The translations under genes were made by a program, and so were the position numbers. Positions 5,619 to 14,655 of a DNA stretch of 47,237 nucleotides are shown piece by piece. This DNA is from Candidatus Dormiibacterota bacterium. Its GTDB lineage: Bacteria; Chloroflexota; Dormibacteria; Aeolococcales; Aeolococcaceae. A model generated the notes under the pieces. That model ran no database searches and had not been told where the DNA came from. It saw only the letters and a list, made by a program, of their open reading frames with translations. The stretch lies in assembly GCA_003142035.1 (NCBI GenBank), contig PLOF01000112.1, positions 8,377 through 55,613 of the forward strand, written 5' to 3'. How positions within the stretch are numbered: the first letter of the stretch is position 1; every line of letters starts with the position of its first letter.

Positions 5619-6644
5619 ATGAGCGTGTTCCGACGCTTCAGCAACATCGTCCAGCAGAAGTCCAATGCCGCTCTGGACAAGATGGAGGACCCCTCCCAGG
5701 CGATCGATCTCTCGTACCAGCAGCTGCTGGAGCAGCAGCAGAAGCTCCGGACCGCGCTGGTCGAGGCGACCACCGGCCAGAAGCGGGTCGAGAATCAGGC
5801 CAAGACGATGGACACCCGGATCGCCTCGCTGAACGACGCCGCTCAGAAGGCCGTCTCCGCAGGCAAGGATGACCTGGCCACCCAGGCATTGACCCAGGCC
5901 GAGGTCCTCCAGCAGCAGCGCCAAGCGCTGGACCCGCAGATTGAGACGCTCAGAGCCCAGGTCGAGAAGCTGCAGGTGGCGCTCCAGAAGTACCAGGCCA
6001 AGGTGCAGTCGTTCGCCACCCAGCGGGAGTCGCTCAAGGCCTCGTACGAGGCGGCCAAGGCGACCAGCACGGCCGGGGACACCCTGGCCGGCATCGGCGA
6101 GCACACGAGCGACGCAGCCATGATGATGCAGCGCGCCCAGGACAAGATCGCCCGCACCCAGGCGCACGCCGACGCCGTCGACGCTCTACTGGAGAGCGGG
6201 ACCCTGGACACCCCGCTGCTCACCGGCGGCACCTCCACGCTCGAGGATCAGATCAGCGCGACCGTCGTGGACAGCAGCGTGCAGGCGAAGCTGGCCGCGA
6301 TGAAGCAGCAGGCGGCACTGCCCGCGCCGGCCGCGCCGGCCCCCGCGGCGATCAGCGCGCAGGGGATCGTGGTCCGCATCCACGGTGATGATCAGTACCG
6401 CCTGGAAGCGTCGCTCCAGTCCGACCTGGACATGTACGACCGCCGGCTGGTCGCCGCCGTCGAGGCCAACGACGATGCCGCCTACCACTCGGTCCTTCGC
6501 GACGTCACCACGTTCGTCAAGACGAAGGGCGTCGTCCTTGGGGGTGCGGATGTCACCAAGAGCGACATCATCCTGCCGAGCGACGACATGCCCCTGAACG
6601 AGGTGGCCGGCATCCTCCATCCCGCCGACGGCGCGGCCGCCTAA
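5619..6644 (+). CDS. PspA/IM30 (ESCRT-III-like) protein fused to a PspAA domain
   Basis: 341 aa. Residues 1-225 are a PspA/Vipp1 coiled coil: the amphipathic N-terminal helix MSVFRRFSNIVQQKSNAALDK, the PSQAID segment, long Gln/Glu/Lys helices and the late helix DKIARTQAHADAVDALLE. An Ala/Pro linker (about 230-245) joins a C-terminal domain of about 90 residues (GIVVRIHGDDQYRLE...SDIILPSDDMPLNEVAGIL) that matches the PspA-associated PspAA domain, normally a separate small protein encoded next to pspA. PspA proteins assemble on stressed membranes and limit proton leakage. I infer that the fusion keeps the partner on every subunit. No PspF, PspC or two-component genes are nearby. ftcD follows after 18 nt. 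Confidence 0.9.
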   Translation: MSVFRRFSNIVQQKSNAALDKMEDPSQAIDLSYQQLLEQQQKLRTALVEATTGQKRVENQAKTMDTRIASLNDAAQKAVSAGKDDLATQALTQAEVLQQQRQALDPQIETLRAQVEKLQVALQKYQAKVQSFATQRESLKASYEAAKATSTAGDTLAGIGEHTSDAAMMMQRAQDKIARTQAHADAVDALLESGTLDTPLLTGGTSTLEDQISATVVDSSVQAKLAAMKQQAALPAPAAPAPAAISAQGIVVRIHGDDQYRLEASLQSDLDMYDRRLVAAVEANDDAAYHSVLRDVTTFVKTKGVVLGGADVTKSDIILPSDDMPLNEVAGILHPADGAAA

Positions 6645-6662: not shown

Positions 6663-8297
6663 ATGAGCGGAGCTGCGGCTGCGATACCGGAACCGCTGGT
6701 ATTGGTGGTACCCAACTTCAGCGAGGGTCGCCGTGCCGAGGTGATGGACGCCATCGTGGCAGCGATGACGTCCGTCCCCGGCATCACGCTGCTCAACCGC
6801 CAGTCGGACCCCGACCACAACCGGCTGGACACCACCCTGATCGGCTCGCCCGAGGCCGCTCGTGCCGCGGCGATGGCGGGAGCTACCAAGGCGGTCGAGC
6901 TGATCGACATGGAGCAGCAGCACGGCAGCCATCCCCGCATGGGGGCGGTCGACGTGATCCCCTTCATCCCCATCCGGGGAGTGACGATGGACGGCTGCGT
7001 GGAGCTGGCCCGAAGCTTTGCCCGCGAGCTCGCCGAGACCCTCTCGCTCCCTGTCTACCTGTACGAGCGCGCCGCCGCGACCCCGGACCGGGCCAGCCTG
7101 GCCGATGTCCGCCGCGGCGAGTACGAGGGTCTCCGGGCAGATGTGGCCGAGGGAAGGCGGCTGCCGGACATGGGCCCCCACCAGCTCGGCAAGGCTGGAG
7201 CCACCGCGGTCGGGGCGCGGCCACCGCTCGTCGCCTTCAACGTCTACCTGAGTGGCAGCGACGAGCGCGCCGCCAAGGAGGTGGCCAAGCGGGTGCGGGA
7301 GCGATCCGGCGGCCTGGTGCACGTCCGCGCCATCGGCTTCGCTGTCCCCGAGCGCGCCTGCGTCCAAGTTTCGATGAACCTGCTCGATCCGCTGGCCACC
7401 CCGCCGTACCGGGCCCTCGAACTGGTCCGGCTGGAGGCCGCCCGCTTCGGCATGCGGGTGCTGGACACCGAGATCGTCGGCCTCATCCCCCAGGCAGCGC
7501 TCGCGGAGTCCGCCGCCCACTACCTGCAGCTGCGCGGCTTCAAGGCCGACGCCCAGGTGATCGAGACCCTGGTGGCCAGCCACGGGAGCGCCGCCCCGGC
7601 CGCCGGGACAGATGGGGCACCAGCCGGAGGCGCCGGTGCCCCCTCCGTGGCTCCGGGCAGCGGCATCGGGACGATGACGGTGAATGGCTTCCTGGATGCC
7701 CTCGCCTCGGAGCGACCGACCCCCGGCGGGGGTGCGGCGGCGGCCGTGAGCGGTGCCGCGGGCGCGGCGCTGCTCGGCATGGTGGCGCGGCTGACCACCG
7801 GACGGAAGGGTTATGAAACCCTCGAGGGCCGCATGGCCGAGGTGGCTGCCCTGGCCGACGCGGAACGTGGCGCCCTGATCGCTCTCGCCGACCGGGACAC
7901 GGCCGCCTTCGACGCCGTGATGGCGGCGTACCGCCAGCCCCGCCGTACCGACGGGGAGCGGGTGGCCCGCAGCGCGGCGGTGCAGTCGGCGTTGACCGGG
8001 GCGGCGGAGGTGCCGCTGGAGGTGGCCCGACGCGCGGCGGCCCTCCTGCCCACGGCGCGGGAGCTGGTCGAGACGGGCAACTCCAATGCGGTCTCCGACG
8101 CCTACTCGGCCGGCCAGCTGCTCCACACCGCTGTGGCCGGCGGCCTGGCCAACGTCAGCATCAACCTCGCGGCGATGAGCGACTCGTCACGCGCCGACGT
8201 GCTGCGGAGCGATGTGCAGAGGGTCCGGAGGGGAGCCGCCGCGCAGCTCGCCGCGGTGGAGGCGGCGTTCGCGTCGCGGCTCTCCAGGACGGGCTGA
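6663..8297 (+). CDS. ftcD: Bifunctional glutamate formimidoyltransferase / formimidotetrahydrofolate cyclodeaminase
   Basis: 544 aa in the order found in the fused enzyme. The transferase N-subdomain (VPNFSEGRR..., residues 10-185) and C-subdomain (to about 300) are followed by a short Ala/Gly linker and, from about residue 338 (MTVNGFLDALASERPTPGGG), the helical cyclodeaminase. The first activity moves the formimino group of N-formimino-glutamate to tetrahydrofolate; the second releases ammonia to give 5,10-methenyl-THF. This ends the formimino branch of histidine degradation and feeds one-carbon metabolism. Glu-Asp-like and PGGG motifs of the cyclodeaminase are intact. hutU is convergent directly downstream; hutH and hutI are not in the window. 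The fused architecture is common in animals and in some bacteria. Confidence 0.93.
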   Translation: MSGAAAAIPEPLVLVVPNFSEGRRAEVMDAIVAAMTSVPGITLLNRQSDPDHNRLDTTLIGSPEAARAAAMAGATKAVELIDMEQQHGSHPRMGAVDVIPFIPIRGVTMDGCVELARSFARELAETLSLPVYLYERAAATPDRASLADVRRGEYEGLRADVAEGRRLPDMGPHQLGKAGATAVGARPPLVAFNVYLSGSDERAAKEVAKRVRERSGGLVHVRAIGFAVPERACVQVSMNLLDPLATPPYRALELVRLEAARFGMRVLDTEIVGLIPQAALAESAAHYLQLRGFKADAQVIETLVASHGSAAPAAGTDGAPAGGAGAPSVAPGSGIGTMTVNGFLDALASERPTPGGGAAAAVSGAAGAALLGMVARLTTGRKGYETLEGRMAEVAALADAERGALIALADRDTAAFDAVMAAYRQPRRTDGERVARSAAVQSALTGAAEVPLEVARRAAALLPTARELVETGNSNAVSDAYSAGQLLHTAVAGGLANVSINLAAMSDSSRADVLRSDVQRVRRGAAAQLAAVEAAFASRLSRTG

Positions 8298-8337
8298 GCC
8301 GCCGCTGCGGGTCGTTCGGCGGATGGGGCCGGCTCAG
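8294..8337. terminator. Shared bidirectional terminator between ftcD and hutU
   Basis: CTGAGCCG (8294-8301) and CGGCTCAG (8330-8337) are perfect inverted arms that contain the stop codons of both convergent genes. A nested pair CCGCC/GGCGG (8300-8304 / 8318-8322) could extend the stem. There is no U-run. Confidence 0.45.
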
Positions 8338-10007
8338 TCCCCGAACTCGCGCATCGGCAGCCGCAGCCCCTTCTCGGCCGCCACCCGCTCGGCCTCCGGG
8401 TAGCCGGCGTCGGCGTGGCGCACCACTCCGCTGCCGGGATCGTTGGTGAGCACCCTCTCGAGCTTCTGAGCCGCCAGAGCAGACCCATCCGCGACCGTCA
8501 CCTGGCCGGCGTGAATCGAGCGTCCGATGCCGACTCCACCGCCGTGGTGGATCGACACCCAGGACGCCCCCGACGCGGTGTTGAGCAGGGCGTTGAGGAG
8601 CGGCCAGTCGGCGATGGCGTCGGACCCGTCGCGCATCCCCTCGGTCTCGCGGTACGGCGATGCCACCGAGCCGGTGTCGAGGTGATCCCTGCCGATGACG
8701 ATCGGCGCCTTGAGGTCGCCGCGCGCCACCATCTCGTTGAAGCGGAGGCCGAGCCGGTCGCGCTCTCCGTAGCCGAGCCAGCAGATGCGGGACGGAAGGC
8801 CCTGGAACTTGACCTTCTTCCCGGCCATCCGGATCCAGCGCGCCAGAGGCTCGTTGTCGGGGAACTCGTCGAGCACCGCCTGGTCGGTGGCCGCGATGTC
8901 GGTCGGGTCGCCGGAGAGGGCGACCCACCGGAAGGGGCCCTTGCCCTCGCAGAAGAGCGGGCGAACGTAGGCGGGGACGAAGCCGGGGAAATCGAAGGCG
9001 CGCGCACAGCCTCCGAGCTTTGCCTCGGCGCGGATGGAATTGCCGTAGTCGAAGACCTCGGCACCGCGATCGAGGAAGCCGATCATGGCGTCCACGTGGG
9101 CCGCCATCGACTCGCGGGCACGGGCGGTGAGGGCCACCGGGTCGGTGAGACGGAGCTGCGCCATCTCCTCCACCGTGGCGCCGCGGGGGACGTACATGAG
9201 GGGGTCGTGCGCCGATGTCTGGTCGGTAACCACATCGATCTCGGCCCCGCTCGCGAGCAGCTCCGGCACCACGTCCGCCGCGTTGCCGAGGACCGCGATG
9301 GAGAGCGGCGTGCGGTTCCGCTTGGCCTCCAGCGCCCGGTCCAGGGCGTCGTCCACCGAGTCCGCGACGACGTCCAAGTAGCCAGTCTCCAGGCGGCGCT
9401 GGATGCGCGAGGGATCGATCTCGACACAGATCGCCACCCCCTCGTTCATGGTCACCGCCATCGGCTGGGCGCCGCCCATGCCGCCGAGCCCGGCGGTGAG
9501 GGTGATGGTGCCGGCCAGCGTGCCCCCGAAACGCTTGGCGGCGATCGCCGCAAAGGTCTCGTAGGTGCCCTGCAGGATGCCCTGGGTCCCGATGTAGATC
9601 CAGGATCCCGCGGTCATCTGGCCGTACATGGTCAGCCCGAGGGCGTCGAGCCGCCGGAACTCCGGCCAGTTGGCCCACTCCGGCACCAGGTTGGCGTTGG
9701 CGATCAGCACCCGCGGCGCCCACTCATGGGTACGGAAGATGCCGACGGGCTTGCCCGACTGCACCAGGAGCGTCTCATCGTTCTCCAGGTCCCGGAGGGA
9801 GGCGACGATGGCATCGAACGCCGCCCAGCTGCGCGCCGCCTTGCCCCCGCCGCCGTAGACGATGAGCTGGTCGGGATGCTCGGCGATCTCCGGGTCCACG
9901 TTGTTCATCAGCATCCGCATGGCGGCCTCCTGCGGCCACGCCTTGCAGGAGAGCTGGGTGCCACGCGGAGCGTGCACCACGCGGGGCCCGTGCACGGCCC
10001 CGGCCAT
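8334..10007 (-). CDS. hutU: Urocanate hydratase (urocanase)
   Basis: 557 aa, full length for the family. Recognisable blocks include [12 protein letters not shown] at the N-terminus, the NAD-binding stretches [11 protein letters not shown] and [25 protein letters not shown], the active-site cysteine in [12 protein letters not shown] (about residue 409) and [11 protein letters not shown] near the end. The enzyme converts urocanate to imidazolone propionate using tightly bound NAD+ as an electrophile, the second step of histidine degradation. Its ATG overlaps the TGA of the NCS1 permease gene (ATGA), so the two are almost certainly co-translated. The FtcD product acts at the end of the same pathway. 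Confidence 0.96.
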
Positions 10008-11437
10008 CAGGACGTTCCCTCGGCGACCGCGGCCGGCACCGCCGGCGCAACCGCACCCGAACCGGCGCGAAGCGAGCGGTGCAGGAAGAAGTAGAGGCCC
10101 GAGGCGACGATGAGTCCGAGGATCCAGGAGATGTCCCCGCCGCCCAGGTGGCTCACCATCGGCCCGGTGTAGAAGGTCGTGTTCATGAAGGGGACCTCGA
10201 CGGCGATGGCGACCAGGTAGGCGACCATGGTCCGCCAGTCGATCCGTCCGTAGATGCCCTTGATGTCGAAGATCGAGGCGATGTCGTACTTCTCGCGGCG
10301 GATGAAGTAGAAGTCCATCAGGTTGATCGCGGTCCAGGGCACCAGGAAGTAGGCGAGGAAGAGGATGAAGTTCTCGAAGTCGTTGAGGAAGTTCGAGGTC
10401 GCGGCCACGGCCAGCACGGTGCCCACCACACCCGCGCCGACGACGAATCCGGCCCGCATCGAGCTGTGCACCCGGATCTTGGCCAGGGCGGTCACCGTGG
10501 TCGTCGTCGACATGAACATGCCATAGAGGTTCAGCACGTTCACGGCGACGATGCCGAGGATGATGACCAGCGAGATCGCCCAGCCGATCGCCTTGTCATT
10601 GCCGAGTCCGACGATGAAGGAGACCGATCCGCTGTTGAAGGCGTTGGCGGCCACCGCCACCGCCACCGCGCCGAAGGCCATCATCCAGACCGTGCCGATC
10701 ACCGACCCGGCAGCCGTCCACCAGAAGGTGGCCGCCTTGCTGGTGTTCTCGGGCAGGTAGCGCGAGTAGTCGGCGACGTAGGGCGCGTAGGTGATCTGCC
10801 AGGTCGCGGCAAAGGTGATGGCGAGCAGGAAGGTGCCGAAGGTCAGGCCGCTGTTAACCCAGACGGCTCCGAGCGAGTGGACCGTGAGCAGCCGGATGGT
10901 GAGGTAGAGGAAGCCGAGGCCCGACACCAGGGCGATCCACCGCTCGTACTGGTGGATCATCCGGTAGCCGTAGACGGCGAGCACCGTGCAGACGATCGAG
11001 ACGATGATGGTGGCGAGAGTCTGGTTGAGACCGAGCCAGCCGGCGAGGGCGGCGCCGCCGAGCACCGCGCTGGTCGCAAAGAAACCGACGTACATGAGCA
11101 GAACGAGGATCAGGGGCAGGATGGCGCCGTAGAAGCCGAACTGGGCCCGGCTCTGGATCATCTGGGGAATGCCCAGCTTGGGGCCCTGCGCCGAGTGCGC
11201 CGCCATGAAGACGACGCCGACGAGGTTGCCGATCACGATGGCGAGCAGCGCCCACGGCAGAGAGAGCCCGATGATCACGGCCAGAGCGCCCGTCACCGCC
11301 GCGGTCACCTGCATGTTGGAGGCGAACCAGATGTTGAAGAGGCTCCGCGGCGTGCCGTGGCGCTCCTCCGGCGGGATGTACTCGATCGAGCGGCGCTCGA
11401 CCTGCAGGCTGCTCGTGTAGCCGCAATCCGTGCTCAT
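10007..11437 (-). CDS. NCS1-family permease coupled to hutU
   Basis: 476 aa with about 12 hydrophobic segments. The N-terminal signature ([22 protein letters not shown]) and the [18 protein letters not shown] stretch are those of the nucleobase:cation symporter-1 family (CodB/Mhp1/PucI type). The usual substrates are cytosine, purines, allantoin and hydantoins. Because the stop overlaps the hutU start, I infer an imidazole-type substrate linked to histidine breakdown, such as urocanate or a hydantoin, not cytosine. The ATG at 11437 is preceded by GGGGAGG at good spacing; the ORF-track start at 11542 adds an Arg-rich stretch unlike the family. A 144-nt gap separates it from the YbjQ operon upstream. 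Confidence 0.88.
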
Positions 11438-11581: not shown

Positions 11582-12433
11582 TCAGCCCTCGGCAGCACCC
11601 CCCGCCGCGGGTGCGGCGTCGGTGACCGGCACCATCTCGTCGTCGAGGCTCACCGACAGCTCGGGAGCGATCTTCCGGTGCTCGGCGGCCACCAGCCTGA
11701 CCGAGGTCCCGATGGCCAGGAACTCGATGACATGACTTCCCCACATGTGAGACTTCTGCTCGATCCGCATGGCCACGATGCCGTGGGCGCGCGACCGCTG
11801 CGCCTCCTGCTGCATCCGGGTCATGGCCAGCTCGCGGGCCTCGTACAGGGCCGAGGTGTAATTGCCGAGCTCGACGTTCTGGCTCTGCTGGCCGACCCAA
11901 GCACCGAGCCGCTGGTGGGCGACGTGGTAGACGCAGGCCCCGAAGGCGAGGCCGATGGGCTGGTAGCCGGCGCGGATCAAGAGGTAGAGGTCCTGCCCGG
12001 AGAGATCGCTGACCCAGATGCCGCTCGACTTCACGTTGGGATTTGCGACCGCCGTGCCCATGGCGACGAACTCGGCGAGGGGGTGGTTCCCCTGATGGAT
12101 CTGGACCTCGAGCTTGAGACCGACCACACCCTGGCCGCCGACCTGCTGGGCGTGGCGCTCCATGGCGGTGAGCGCCTCGGTACGGGCCTGGTACATGGCC
12201 TGGGTCAGGTCGCCCATCTCCTGGTTGGTAGTCCAGTTGGCGTACTGGATGCCGATGTGGTAGACGGCGCTGCCGACCACCAGCCCCTTGGGCTCGTAGC
12301 CGATCTCCTTGAGCAGCACCGCCTCGTCGACGGAGAGATCGCTGCTGAAGGCGCGACCCTGATGGCGCTCACTGCTCTTCCCGGCCAGACAGGCGAGGGC
12401 GGCGTCGGCGCGGGGGTGGGGCATGACCGACAT
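11582..12433 (-). CDS. Tandem YbjQ-like (PF01906-type) protein, third copy
   Basis: 283 aa made of two similar domains (about residues 25-135 and 140-255). Each runs: SSDLSVDE/VSDLSGQD, hydrophobic helix, G-Y-x-P-x-G-L-x-x-G-x-x-V-Y-H, a helix LTQAMYQARTEAL / YTSALYEARELAM, G-V-V-G-L and E-F-V/L-A-M/I-G-T-A/S-V. This is the YbjQ/UPF0145 pattern, a small beta-alpha-beta fold that forms ring oligomers and is often called heavy-metal-binding, although the function is unproven. The ends are disordered Ala/Pro-rich tails. It is the last gene of a four-gene minus-strand operon and its start overlaps the previous stop by ATGA. Confidence 0.85.
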   Translation of the reverse strand: MSVMPHPRADAALACLAGKSSERHQGRAFSSDLSVDEAVLLKEIGYEPKGLVVGSAVYHIGIQYANWTTNQEMGDLTQAMYQARTEALTAMERHAQQVGGQGVVGLKLEVQIHQGNHPLAEFVAMGTAVANPNVKSSGIWVSDLSGQDLYLLIRAGYQPIGLAFGACVYHVAHQRLGAWVGQQSQNVELGNYTSALYEARELAMTRMQQEAQRSRAHGIVAMRIEQKSHMWGSHVIEFLAIGTSVRLVAAEHRKIAPELSVSLDDEMVPVTDAAPAAGGAAEG

Positions 12434-13380
12434 CAGCGCAGCCTCATGATCGGCAACGGAGGCTCATCGAGGGGCTCCTTGGCGTAGCGCCGCACCGCGG
12501 TGCCGAGCAGGAAGAGCTCGACCAGCATGGACTCGCCGCCCAGCTCGTAGGTGGAGAGATCGGTCTCGACGCCGACCGCGCCGTCGGCGTCGACGGTCGC
12601 CACCTCGGCCTCGAGGTGGTTGATGCCGAGCATCCGGGCCTCCTCGATGCCGTCGCTGATCTGCTGGATGCGCGTGTTCGACCACGAGCGCAGCGCCCAC
12701 TCGGTGCCGCAACCGGGGTCGATCTCCATCGCCCCGATGCCCATCACCAGCGCCACCGGGACGTAGCCGCCGTGGAGCAGCTTGCTGAAGGCGACACCGT
12801 CGAGGTGGGACATGAACGGGGAGCGGAGCTTCGGGCCGCCACGGCGGCGCACCGCCGTGCCGATGCACGTGAACTCCAGTGAGTTGCCGACACCCTCCAG
12901 GTGGCGGCGGAGGATGCGCACCCCGACCACCCCGTGAGCGCCCAGGCCCTGTGCCTCCTCGAGGATCCGGCGGAGCGCGGCGTCGCGGGTCTCGGTGATA
13001 CCGGCCTCGTAGAAGCGGTGCTCCCAGTTGTACCCGGTGCGGTGCTCGCTGCCGACCCCGTAACCGTAGAAGCCGTGTGGGCAGGGGTAGGTGCGCACCC
13101 TGCCTCCGCCGGTCGCGCCGCCCAGGCCGTAGACGGTGGTGTACCCCCATTGAGCCGCGATCCGGTAGACGCTCGAGCCCATCACCATCCCCACCGGCTC
13201 GAAACCGGCGTGCTGTATGGCCGCCATCTCGGACACCGAGAGGTCGCTGGTCCAGGCAGACTTGCCCTCGCGCAGCTCCTCGATACGCTCCTGGGCCGCG
13301 AGCGGCAACCCGCCTCGCTCGAGGGACGCGATGCTCGCCAACTGGCGCTGCTGGGCGGCTGCGGCAGCCTCGTCGCTCAT
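12433..13380 (-). CDS. Tandem YbjQ-like protein, second copy
   Basis: 315 aa, the most divergent of the three. The first domain (about 40-180) keeps TSDLSVSEMAAIQHAGFEPVGMVMGSSVYRI and EFTCIGTAVR but carries a Gly/Tyr-rich insertion (GGRVRTYPCPHGFYGYG) with a cysteine and histidines. The second domain (about 190-300) begins PFMSHLDGVAFSKLLHGGYVPVALVMG and ends VELFLLGTAVRRY. It carries CG and acidic residues not seen in its neighbours. The ORF track starts it at 13848, but the ATG at 13380 overlaps the upstream TGA (ATGA) and gives a sensible N-terminus. The divergence suggests that the three copies are specialised subunits and not simple redundancy. Confidence 0.85.
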   Translation of the reverse strand: MSDEAAAAAQQRQLASIASLERGGLPLAAQERIEELREGKSAWTSDLSVSEMAAIQHAGFEPVGMVMGSSVYRIAAQWGYTTVYGLGGATGGGRVRTYPCPHGFYGYGVGSEHRTGYNWEHRFYEAGITETRDAALRRILEEAQGLGAHGVVGVRILRRHLEGVGNSLEFTCIGTAVRRRGGPKLRSPFMSHLDGVAFSKLLHGGYVPVALVMGIGAMEIDPGCGTEWALRSWSNTRIQQISDGIEEARMLGINHLEAEVATVDADGAVGVETDLSTYELGGESMLVELFLLGTAVRRYAKEPLDEPPLPIMRLR

Positions 13381-14219
13381 CAGCGGTCCAGCGACAGGAC
13401 CATGCGCGGCGTGGCGATCTCGCGGTCGGGCAGCTTGCGAACCGCGGTTCCCATCGCGAAGAACTCGATGGTGTGGCTGCCCCAGACGTGCGACTTCTCC
13501 TGGATCTGAACCCCCACGATGCCCTCGGCGCCGACCTTCTTGGCCTCGTCCTGCATCCGCTCCATGGCCAGCTCGCGGGCCTCGTAGAGCGCCTGGGTGA
13601 AGTTGGGCATCTCCTTGTTCTGCCCTATGTTGCCCATCGCCTGGAACATCCCCTGGTGGGCGACGTGGTAGACACAGGTGCCCATGACCAGCCCGAGCGG
13701 TGCGTGCCCGGCCTGCAGCAGGGTCCAGAAGTCCTGGCCGGAGAGGTCGGACGTGAACGGCTTGCCGGCCGGCGTCTTCCAGTTGCCGCCATCCTCGGCG
13801 CTCACCGCCGTGCCGAGGGCGAGGAACTCGGCCGTGCCCCGGCCCCACTCGTAGAAGCCCACATCGAGACGGACCCCGACGACTCCGTCGGCACCCAGCA
13901 CGGCGGCCTCCTCCTCCATCCGGCTCATGGCGAGCTCGCGGGCCGCGTACATCGCCTGGGTCAGGGTCTGCACCTCACGGCTCGTGCTCCATCCCTTGGA
14001 GCTGAAGCCGATGTGGTAGATGCTGCTGCCCACCACCAGACCGCGCGGGTGGAAACCGGCCTCCTTGACCAGCAGGAACTCGTTGACCGAGAGGTCGCTG
14101 GTGAAGAGGGCGTCCTTGCCCTGCAGTTCGGCGAGGCGGCGGAGCGCATCCTTGGGGAGCCCCTCGAGGGGCGCCGGGGGAGCCTCGACCGGCTGAGGGG
14201 GATCCTCCTGCTGGGTCAT
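13380..14219 (-). CDS. Tandem YbjQ-like protein, first copy
   Basis: 279 aa with two clear domains. TSDLSVNEFLLVKEAGFHPRGLVVGSSIYHIG to EFLALGTAVS is the first; TSDLSGQDFWTLLQAGHAPLGLVMGTCVYHVAHQ to EFFAMGTAVRKL is the second. The second domain is very close to that of the third copy (SHVWGSHTIEF versus SHMWGSHVIEF), so the genes arose by duplication of an already tandem ancestor. AGGAGG lies 9 nt before the ATG at 14219; the longer ORF start at 14426 would run through the upstream gene. Cytoplasmic, no signal peptide. Function unknown. Confidence 0.87.
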   Translation of the reverse strand: MTQQEDPPQPVEAPPAPLEGLPKDALRRLAELQGKDALFTSDLSVNEFLLVKEAGFHPRGLVVGSSIYHIGFSSKGWSTSREVQTLTQAMYAARELAMSRMEEEAAVLGADGVVGVRLDVGFYEWGRGTAEFLALGTAVSAEDGGNWKTPAGKPFTSDLSGQDFWTLLQAGHAPLGLVMGTCVYHVAHQGMFQAMGNIGQNKEMPNFTQALYEARELAMERMQDEAKKVGAEGIVGVQIQEKSHVWGSHTIEFFAMGTAVRKLPDREIATPRMVLSLDR

Positions 14220-14262
14220 GACGGGCGCGCCTCCTGTGGGGATGGACGGGCGGTGGGGAAGC

Positions 14263-14655
14263 TCAGGTGACTTCGGAACGCAGCCCTGCGAGGGCCTCGG
14301 AGCTGACCTGGGCCTGAGTGCCCAGGACGACGACCAGCGCTCGACGCCAGGCCTCGAAGCCCAGATCCTCGGAGCGGAGAACGATACCCCGCACCGCGTG
14401 AGCGTGCCGGCACGCAACCGAACCACGGCTCAATTCGGCCTCGAAGACGTCCTCTCCCGCCCGGACTGTGATCTTCCGGATGGGATGATCCTTCTTGAAG
14501 AGACCTCCCTCACGCTGGACCTGGACAGCACCCGGCACGGTGGCAAGCAGCTTGCCGCAGAACACCTGGAAGAAGACCGCGATATCCGCGGCATCCATGT
14601 GCAGGGAGGCGGCGACAGAGTCGAGGTCCGGCTCGGGCGTGGGGGCGTCGTTCAT
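14263..14655 (-). CDS. Conserved-looking hypothetical protein heading the YbjQ operon
   Basis: 130 aa. After an acidic N-terminus, an amphipathic helix (DLDSVAASLHMDAADIAVFFQVFCGKLLATVPG) precedes a beta-rich part with a basic turn (GGLFKKDHPIRKITVRAGEDVFEAELSRG) and a final helix (WRRALVVVLGTQAQVSSEALAGL). I cannot name the family. My recollection is that short proteins of this shape occur next to YbjQ-type genes in actinobacteria; I could not check that here. It is 43 nt upstream of the first ybjQ copy and carries the only promoter-like sequence of the operon. A partner or chaperone role for the YbjQ proteins is an inference from gene order. Confidence 0.7.
   Translation of the reverse strand: MNDAPTPEPDLDSVAASLHMDAADIAVFFQVFCGKLLATVPGAVQVQREGGLFKKDHPIRKITVRAGEDVFEAELSRGSVACRHAHAVRGIVLRSEDLGFEAWRRALVVVLGTQAQVSSEALAGLRSEVT

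Follow-up and report, generated by a model that had tools for sequence, protein, structure and literature searches.

YbjQ proteins (UPF0145, PF01906) occur in many bacteria and archaea. Thiamin phosphate synthase activity is presumably a property of YjbQ (UPF0047), which is a separate family, and a report that credits this activity to YbjQ (PMC7084401) was set aside as a mix-up between the two. We found no settled function for YbjQ, in agreement with the original prediction made for the locus described here. The YbjQ proteins with solved structures are homopentameric, and in one of them the subunits differ in conformation (PMC4092069, PMC2954204). A second point of comparison is provided by Rv1761c of Mycobacterium tuberculosis, which was described from NMR work in detergent as a membrane protein whose single transmembrane helix is kinked and accompanied by four other helices (PMC6269851).

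The locus lies in a 47,237-nucleotide stretch of a Candidatus Dormiibacterota genome (GCA_003142035.1, contig PLOF01000112.1), referred to below as the window. As predicted, positions 11582-14655 hold three genes for two-domain YbjQ proteins together with a leader gene, all on the minus strand and in the order L, Y1, Y2, Y3. The leader L (14263-14655) encodes 130 amino acids and is followed after a gap of 43 bp by Y1 (13380-14219, 279 amino acids), Y2 (12433-13380, 315 amino acids) and Y3 (11582-12433, 283 amino acids). The Y genes do overlap, although not by the ATGA motif that had been proposed: both junctions read TGATG and share a single base, at 13380 and 12433. Because reading frames and gene order are kept among relatives from 98% down to ~65% identity, the cassette is not a product of chance. 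The same genome also carries an ordinary single-domain YbjQ gene (G000:C33:22835-23140, 125.6 bits to PF01906), so the tandem set is an addition to it. Elsewhere in the window, a minus-strand gene at 16875-17429 matches the uncharacterized DUF6812 family weakly, in two stretches.

Each half of the three tandem proteins belongs to the YbjQ family. A profile search recovered six separate stretches, one per half, above the curated PF01906 (YbjQ_1) cut-off of 23 bits, the weakest being the C-terminal half of Y2 at a marginal 23.1 bits; the whole proteins score 89.9 (Y1), 55.8 (Y2) and 73.5 bits (Y3). The predicted model of Y1 (pLDDT 83.7) contains two YbjQ folds, and its best Foldseek matches in the PDB are the YbjQ structures 1y2i and 1vr4, at a probability of 1.0. 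It had been suggested that tandem proteins could build the usual ring from half as many chains. This does not fit the known rings, which are pentameric (PMC4092069, PMC2954204): a ring of five domains cannot be assembled from whole two-domain chains, so that the tandem proteins would require a double or stacked ring, a ring of larger or otherwise different size, or a mixed assembly.

The tandem subunits fall into two types with a common origin. In a tree of the separated domains, the N-terminal and C-terminal halves part only once (support 96/92), which points to a single ancient duplication and fusion that preceded both the divergence of Y1, Y2 and Y3 and the spread of the set across phyla. 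Y1 and Y3 are indeed the closer pair (~50% identical), whereas Y1 and Y2 share ~33%, and Y1 remains 62-92% identical to most of its relatives across phyla. In the second domain of the conserved type, C182, H185, E203 and W246 are invariant in 127 distinct sequences and H249 is present in 124 of them, counts in which sequences from close relatives are entered separately and which therefore do not represent independent events. The mycobacterial type keeps the first four residues, with H249 in 13 of 14 sequences and one gap. In divergent partners the five residues are largely lost; within the window, Y1 and Y3 retain them and Y2 does not. Retention in one type and loss in the other suggests, at the level of sequence, that the cassette pairs an active-type tandem subunit with a degenerate partner. 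The Gly/Tyr/Cys loop noted earlier in Y2 (window 12900-13150) is confirmed, and Y2 orthologues, those of the same family only, largely preserve its PCPHG core. The loop is possibly a small metal or redox site.

The Cys and His residues raise the alternative that the products form a metal- or thiol-handling complex, with these residues binding metal and the complex playing no particular part in membrane stress. PF01906 is named as a putative heavy-metal-binding family, and C182 and H185 are invariant, and H249 nearly so, in the conserved subunit and the mycobacterial forms. However, the family name is itself based on prediction, the neighbours of the cassette include no recurrent metal transporter or metal regulator, and the conserved residues could form a ligand pocket instead. 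On balance, we regard metal or thiol handling as the principal role as unlikely.

The gene set is held together over long evolutionary distances. Of 80 named loci that were fetched by similarity to the Y proteins and that represent Dormibacterota and several actinobacterial groups, 76 have L adjoining tandem-YbjQ genes; in two of the other four, a contig end interrupts the locus. Among 100 fetched loci, some of them chosen by L itself, the figure is 96. Across 61 surveyed relatives, close and distant, 39 have Y1 and 35 have L; in a phylum-wide sample, 58 of 400 genomes contain L, and most sampled Chloroflexota-type genomes likewise hold it beside tandem-YbjQ genes. The genes thus stay together in related and distant genomes alike, instead of lying apart and single, as would have argued against a dedicated set. 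Four gene orders occur, L-Yc-Yd-Yd, L-Yd-Yc, Yd-L-Yc and Yd-Yc-L, where c stands for the conserved subunit and d for the divergent one. Three paralogs are a feature of the window and not a rule, since many lineages have two and some, including mycobacteria and some relatives, have one. The closest named match is a Candidatus Changshengia metagenome-assembled genome, with a Y1 that is 98% identical. Among cultured bacteria, the set occurs for example in Kutzneria sp. 744 and on plasmids of two Streptomyces strains, in which the Y genes are annotated as heavy metal-binding domain-containing and the neighbouring hypothetical protein matches the L profile. On a plasmid of the cyanobacterium Aulosira laxa there is a gene whose product shares 42% identity with Y1 across 81% of its length; no leader was noted there. 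The cassette gave no PADLOC hit as an anti-phage defence system, and a phage-borne origin was rejected as phage records held no match. Tandem YbjQ with L is apparently a widespread and undescribed bacterial gene set.

The leader had been proposed as a partner of the YbjQ proteins, and its conservation beside tandem-YbjQ genes agrees with that role. Searches of Pfam, NCBIfam and PADLOC returned nothing for the L of the window, which also gives no hit at the curated cut-off of DUF5073 (PF16817). Seven of 59 leader relatives do match DUF5073 (best E 1.7e-6), and comparison of the L and DUF5073 profiles by hhalign returns a probability of 94.9 (E 4.5e-8); by this profile evidence, L is distantly related to DUF5073. 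In 250 genomes sampled from the order to which Kutzneria belongs, DUF5073 genes number 11, and every one lies directly 3' of a tandem-YbjQ gene, with which most share a TGATG overlap; this DUF5073 set matches Rv1761c (PDB 2k3m, E 8.9e-59). Together, the two relationships identify Rv1762c-Rv1761c as the same cassette, a pair that we infer from adjacent locus numbers in M. tuberculosis. The predicted model of L is an alpha2-beta5-alpha fold (mean pLDDT 75), which disagrees with the published helical structure of Rv1761c (PMC6269851), and a fold search with the model gave nothing convincing in the PDB (best E 0.2). Assignment of L as a PspAA domain was rejected (hhalign probability 1.7). Two variations on the leader were also observed. 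In three loci of the same genus, a leader paralogue without YbjQ lies beside an IMPDH-like gene (named by eye), and in three loci of a sister genus, two tandem leader genes precede Y1, the second 42-48% identical to the L of the window.

The mycobacterial counterpart brings in the strongest alternative to the reading we prefer, namely that the tandem proteins assemble into a separate large particle, such as a pentamer-based one, in which L would be a cap or an adaptor and with which PspA would share regulation only. Rv1762c is found consistently in encapsulin nanocompartments isolated by ultracentrifugation from M. tuberculosis (PMC8635971), a co-sedimentation that may nevertheless reflect cargo, surface binding or contamination. 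The pentameric state of the solved YbjQ proteins and the unusual conservation of the tandem subunit also favour a particle; yet single-domain YbjQ gives pentamers only, and no such particle is described in the literature searched. An independent particle is a candidate, though a doubtful one.

PspA is a membrane-repair protein that resembles ESCRT-III. In the window, a PspA-PspAA fusion (5619-6644, plus strand; PF04012, 94.3 bits; PF22743, 69 bits) lies tail-to-tail with the cassette, 5 kb downstream of Y3. The two do not share an operon in this genome, being on opposite strands and 5 kb apart, with genes for a formiminotransferase-cyclodeaminase (plus strand), a urocanase and a cytosine/purine-type permease (both minus strand) between them at 6663-11437; we do not count these as members of the system. 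In a survey of cassette neighbours, PspA is the only narrow family that recurs across lineages, and other recurrent neighbours were discarded as large superfamilies (MFS, ABC, aldehyde dehydrogenase) or as confined to one lineage. The arrangement varies. Firstly, pspA is tail-to-tail at 0.4-7.6 kb in eight genomes, including that of the window, and is 0.4 kb from Y3 in three genomes of a sister genus. Secondly, pspA and L are head-to-head, 104-246 bp apart, in seven genomes, one from another family in the class and six from a further family of large genomes (up to 11 Mb) whose ktedonobacterial-type label is putative. Thirdly, pspA precedes L and Y on the same strand in two loci (L095 and L144) with gaps of 17-27 bp, and lies ~0.3 kb upstream in L092. 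Finally, pspA follows L-Y-Y on the same strand in two others (L111 and L131), the latter with a short PspA-like protein of 172 amino acids encoded 16 bp after Y1.

In total, pspA lies within 10 kb of the cassette in 15 of 61 genomes, where a rough chance estimate gives ~0.5, although these 15 come from three families and are not 15 independent events. PspA is encoded in 49 of the 58 leader-bearing genomes in the 400-genome phylum sample and in 162 of the 342 others, a comparison confounded by phylogeny; nine leader-bearing genomes are without it. No pspA was found within 8-10 kb on the same contig in 46 of the 61 genomes, nor at most actinobacterial loci, partly because assemblies are fragmented. 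An inverted repeat, ACGTTTAT-N14-ATAAACGT, was considered as a shared operator of divergent pspA and L and rejected, since shuffled sequences yield it too frequently and it is missing from several of these regions; it is present in some pspA/L intergenic regions (L164-L173 and L194, putatively ktedonobacterial-type) at a frequency not clearly above chance. Among the open-access papers searched, YbjQ and PspA are named together in only one, a proteomics study, which is weak evidence of novelty, and neither YbjQ nor heavy-metal domains turned up in searches of two PSP-neighbourhood surveys. Neither the recurrent pspA link nor the mycobacterial counterpart featured in the original prediction.

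These arrangements also bear on the simplest explanation, that duplicated housekeeping genes were kept together by descent and that pspA is nearby by chance. The Y genes do resemble each other, and synteny is inherited among close relatives. That the set is intact across four gene orders and several phyla, and that pspA is found in four different orientations, makes this explanation already very improbable.

We favour the reading, to which we assign a probability of roughly 0.4, that the operon encodes a hetero-oligomeric complex that serves PspA-type envelope-stress repair. Y1 and Y3 would supply the conserved-type subunits with the Cys/His/Trp/Glu set in the second domain, and Y2, the degenerate tandem subunit, together with L, a small adaptor, would complete the hetero-oligomer. 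When the envelope is stressed, the complex would cooperate with PspA on the inner side of the cell membrane; in the simplest case it would be a scaffold or a sensor, recruiting PspA assemblies or tuning them. The many cassettes with no pspA close by, the nine leader-bearing genomes that lack PspA, the silence of the two PSP surveys and the leader paralogue without YbjQ weigh against this reading. Metal or ligand binding by the conserved residues could be accommodated by this PspA-linked complex or by a particle of its own. A more specific version, that paired YbjQ domains build a mixed or double pentameric particle that, with the L/DUF5073 adaptor, acts on PspA membrane scaffolds as a widespread, undescribed system whose conservation extends from Dormibacterota and ktedonobacterial relatives as far as Actinomycetota and, among these, the tuberculosis complex, is speculative and improbable as a whole. 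Nonetheless, a conserved gene set with a partner, a degenerate subunit and a pspA linkage yields a concrete, testable hypothesis for YbjQ, and the cassette ties together two unexplained mycobacterial proteins, Rv1761c, known as a membrane protein from NMR, and Rv1762c, known from nanocompartment preparations.

Among described systems, PSP modules with PspA and PspAA (Ravi et al. 2024, PMC11237479) resemble the locus in the PspA-PspAA fusion of the window and in the recurrence of pspA beside the cassette; they differ in that the cassette often lies outside the pspA operon, and YbjQ or DUF5073 partners do not appear in the searched portion of that text. Mycobacterial Rv1761c-Rv1762c has the same two kinds of protein encoded by adjacent, overlapping genes, but with one tandem gene and the reverse gene order, and the L of the window on its own falls below DUF5073 detection. 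Finally, each tandem half matches the YbjQ family (UPF0145, PF01906; structures 1y2i, 1vr4 and 2gtc) in sequence and in predicted fold, whereas the cassette differs from that family in its two domains per chain, its heteromeric gene set, its own conserved Cys, His and Trp residues and its operon with L.
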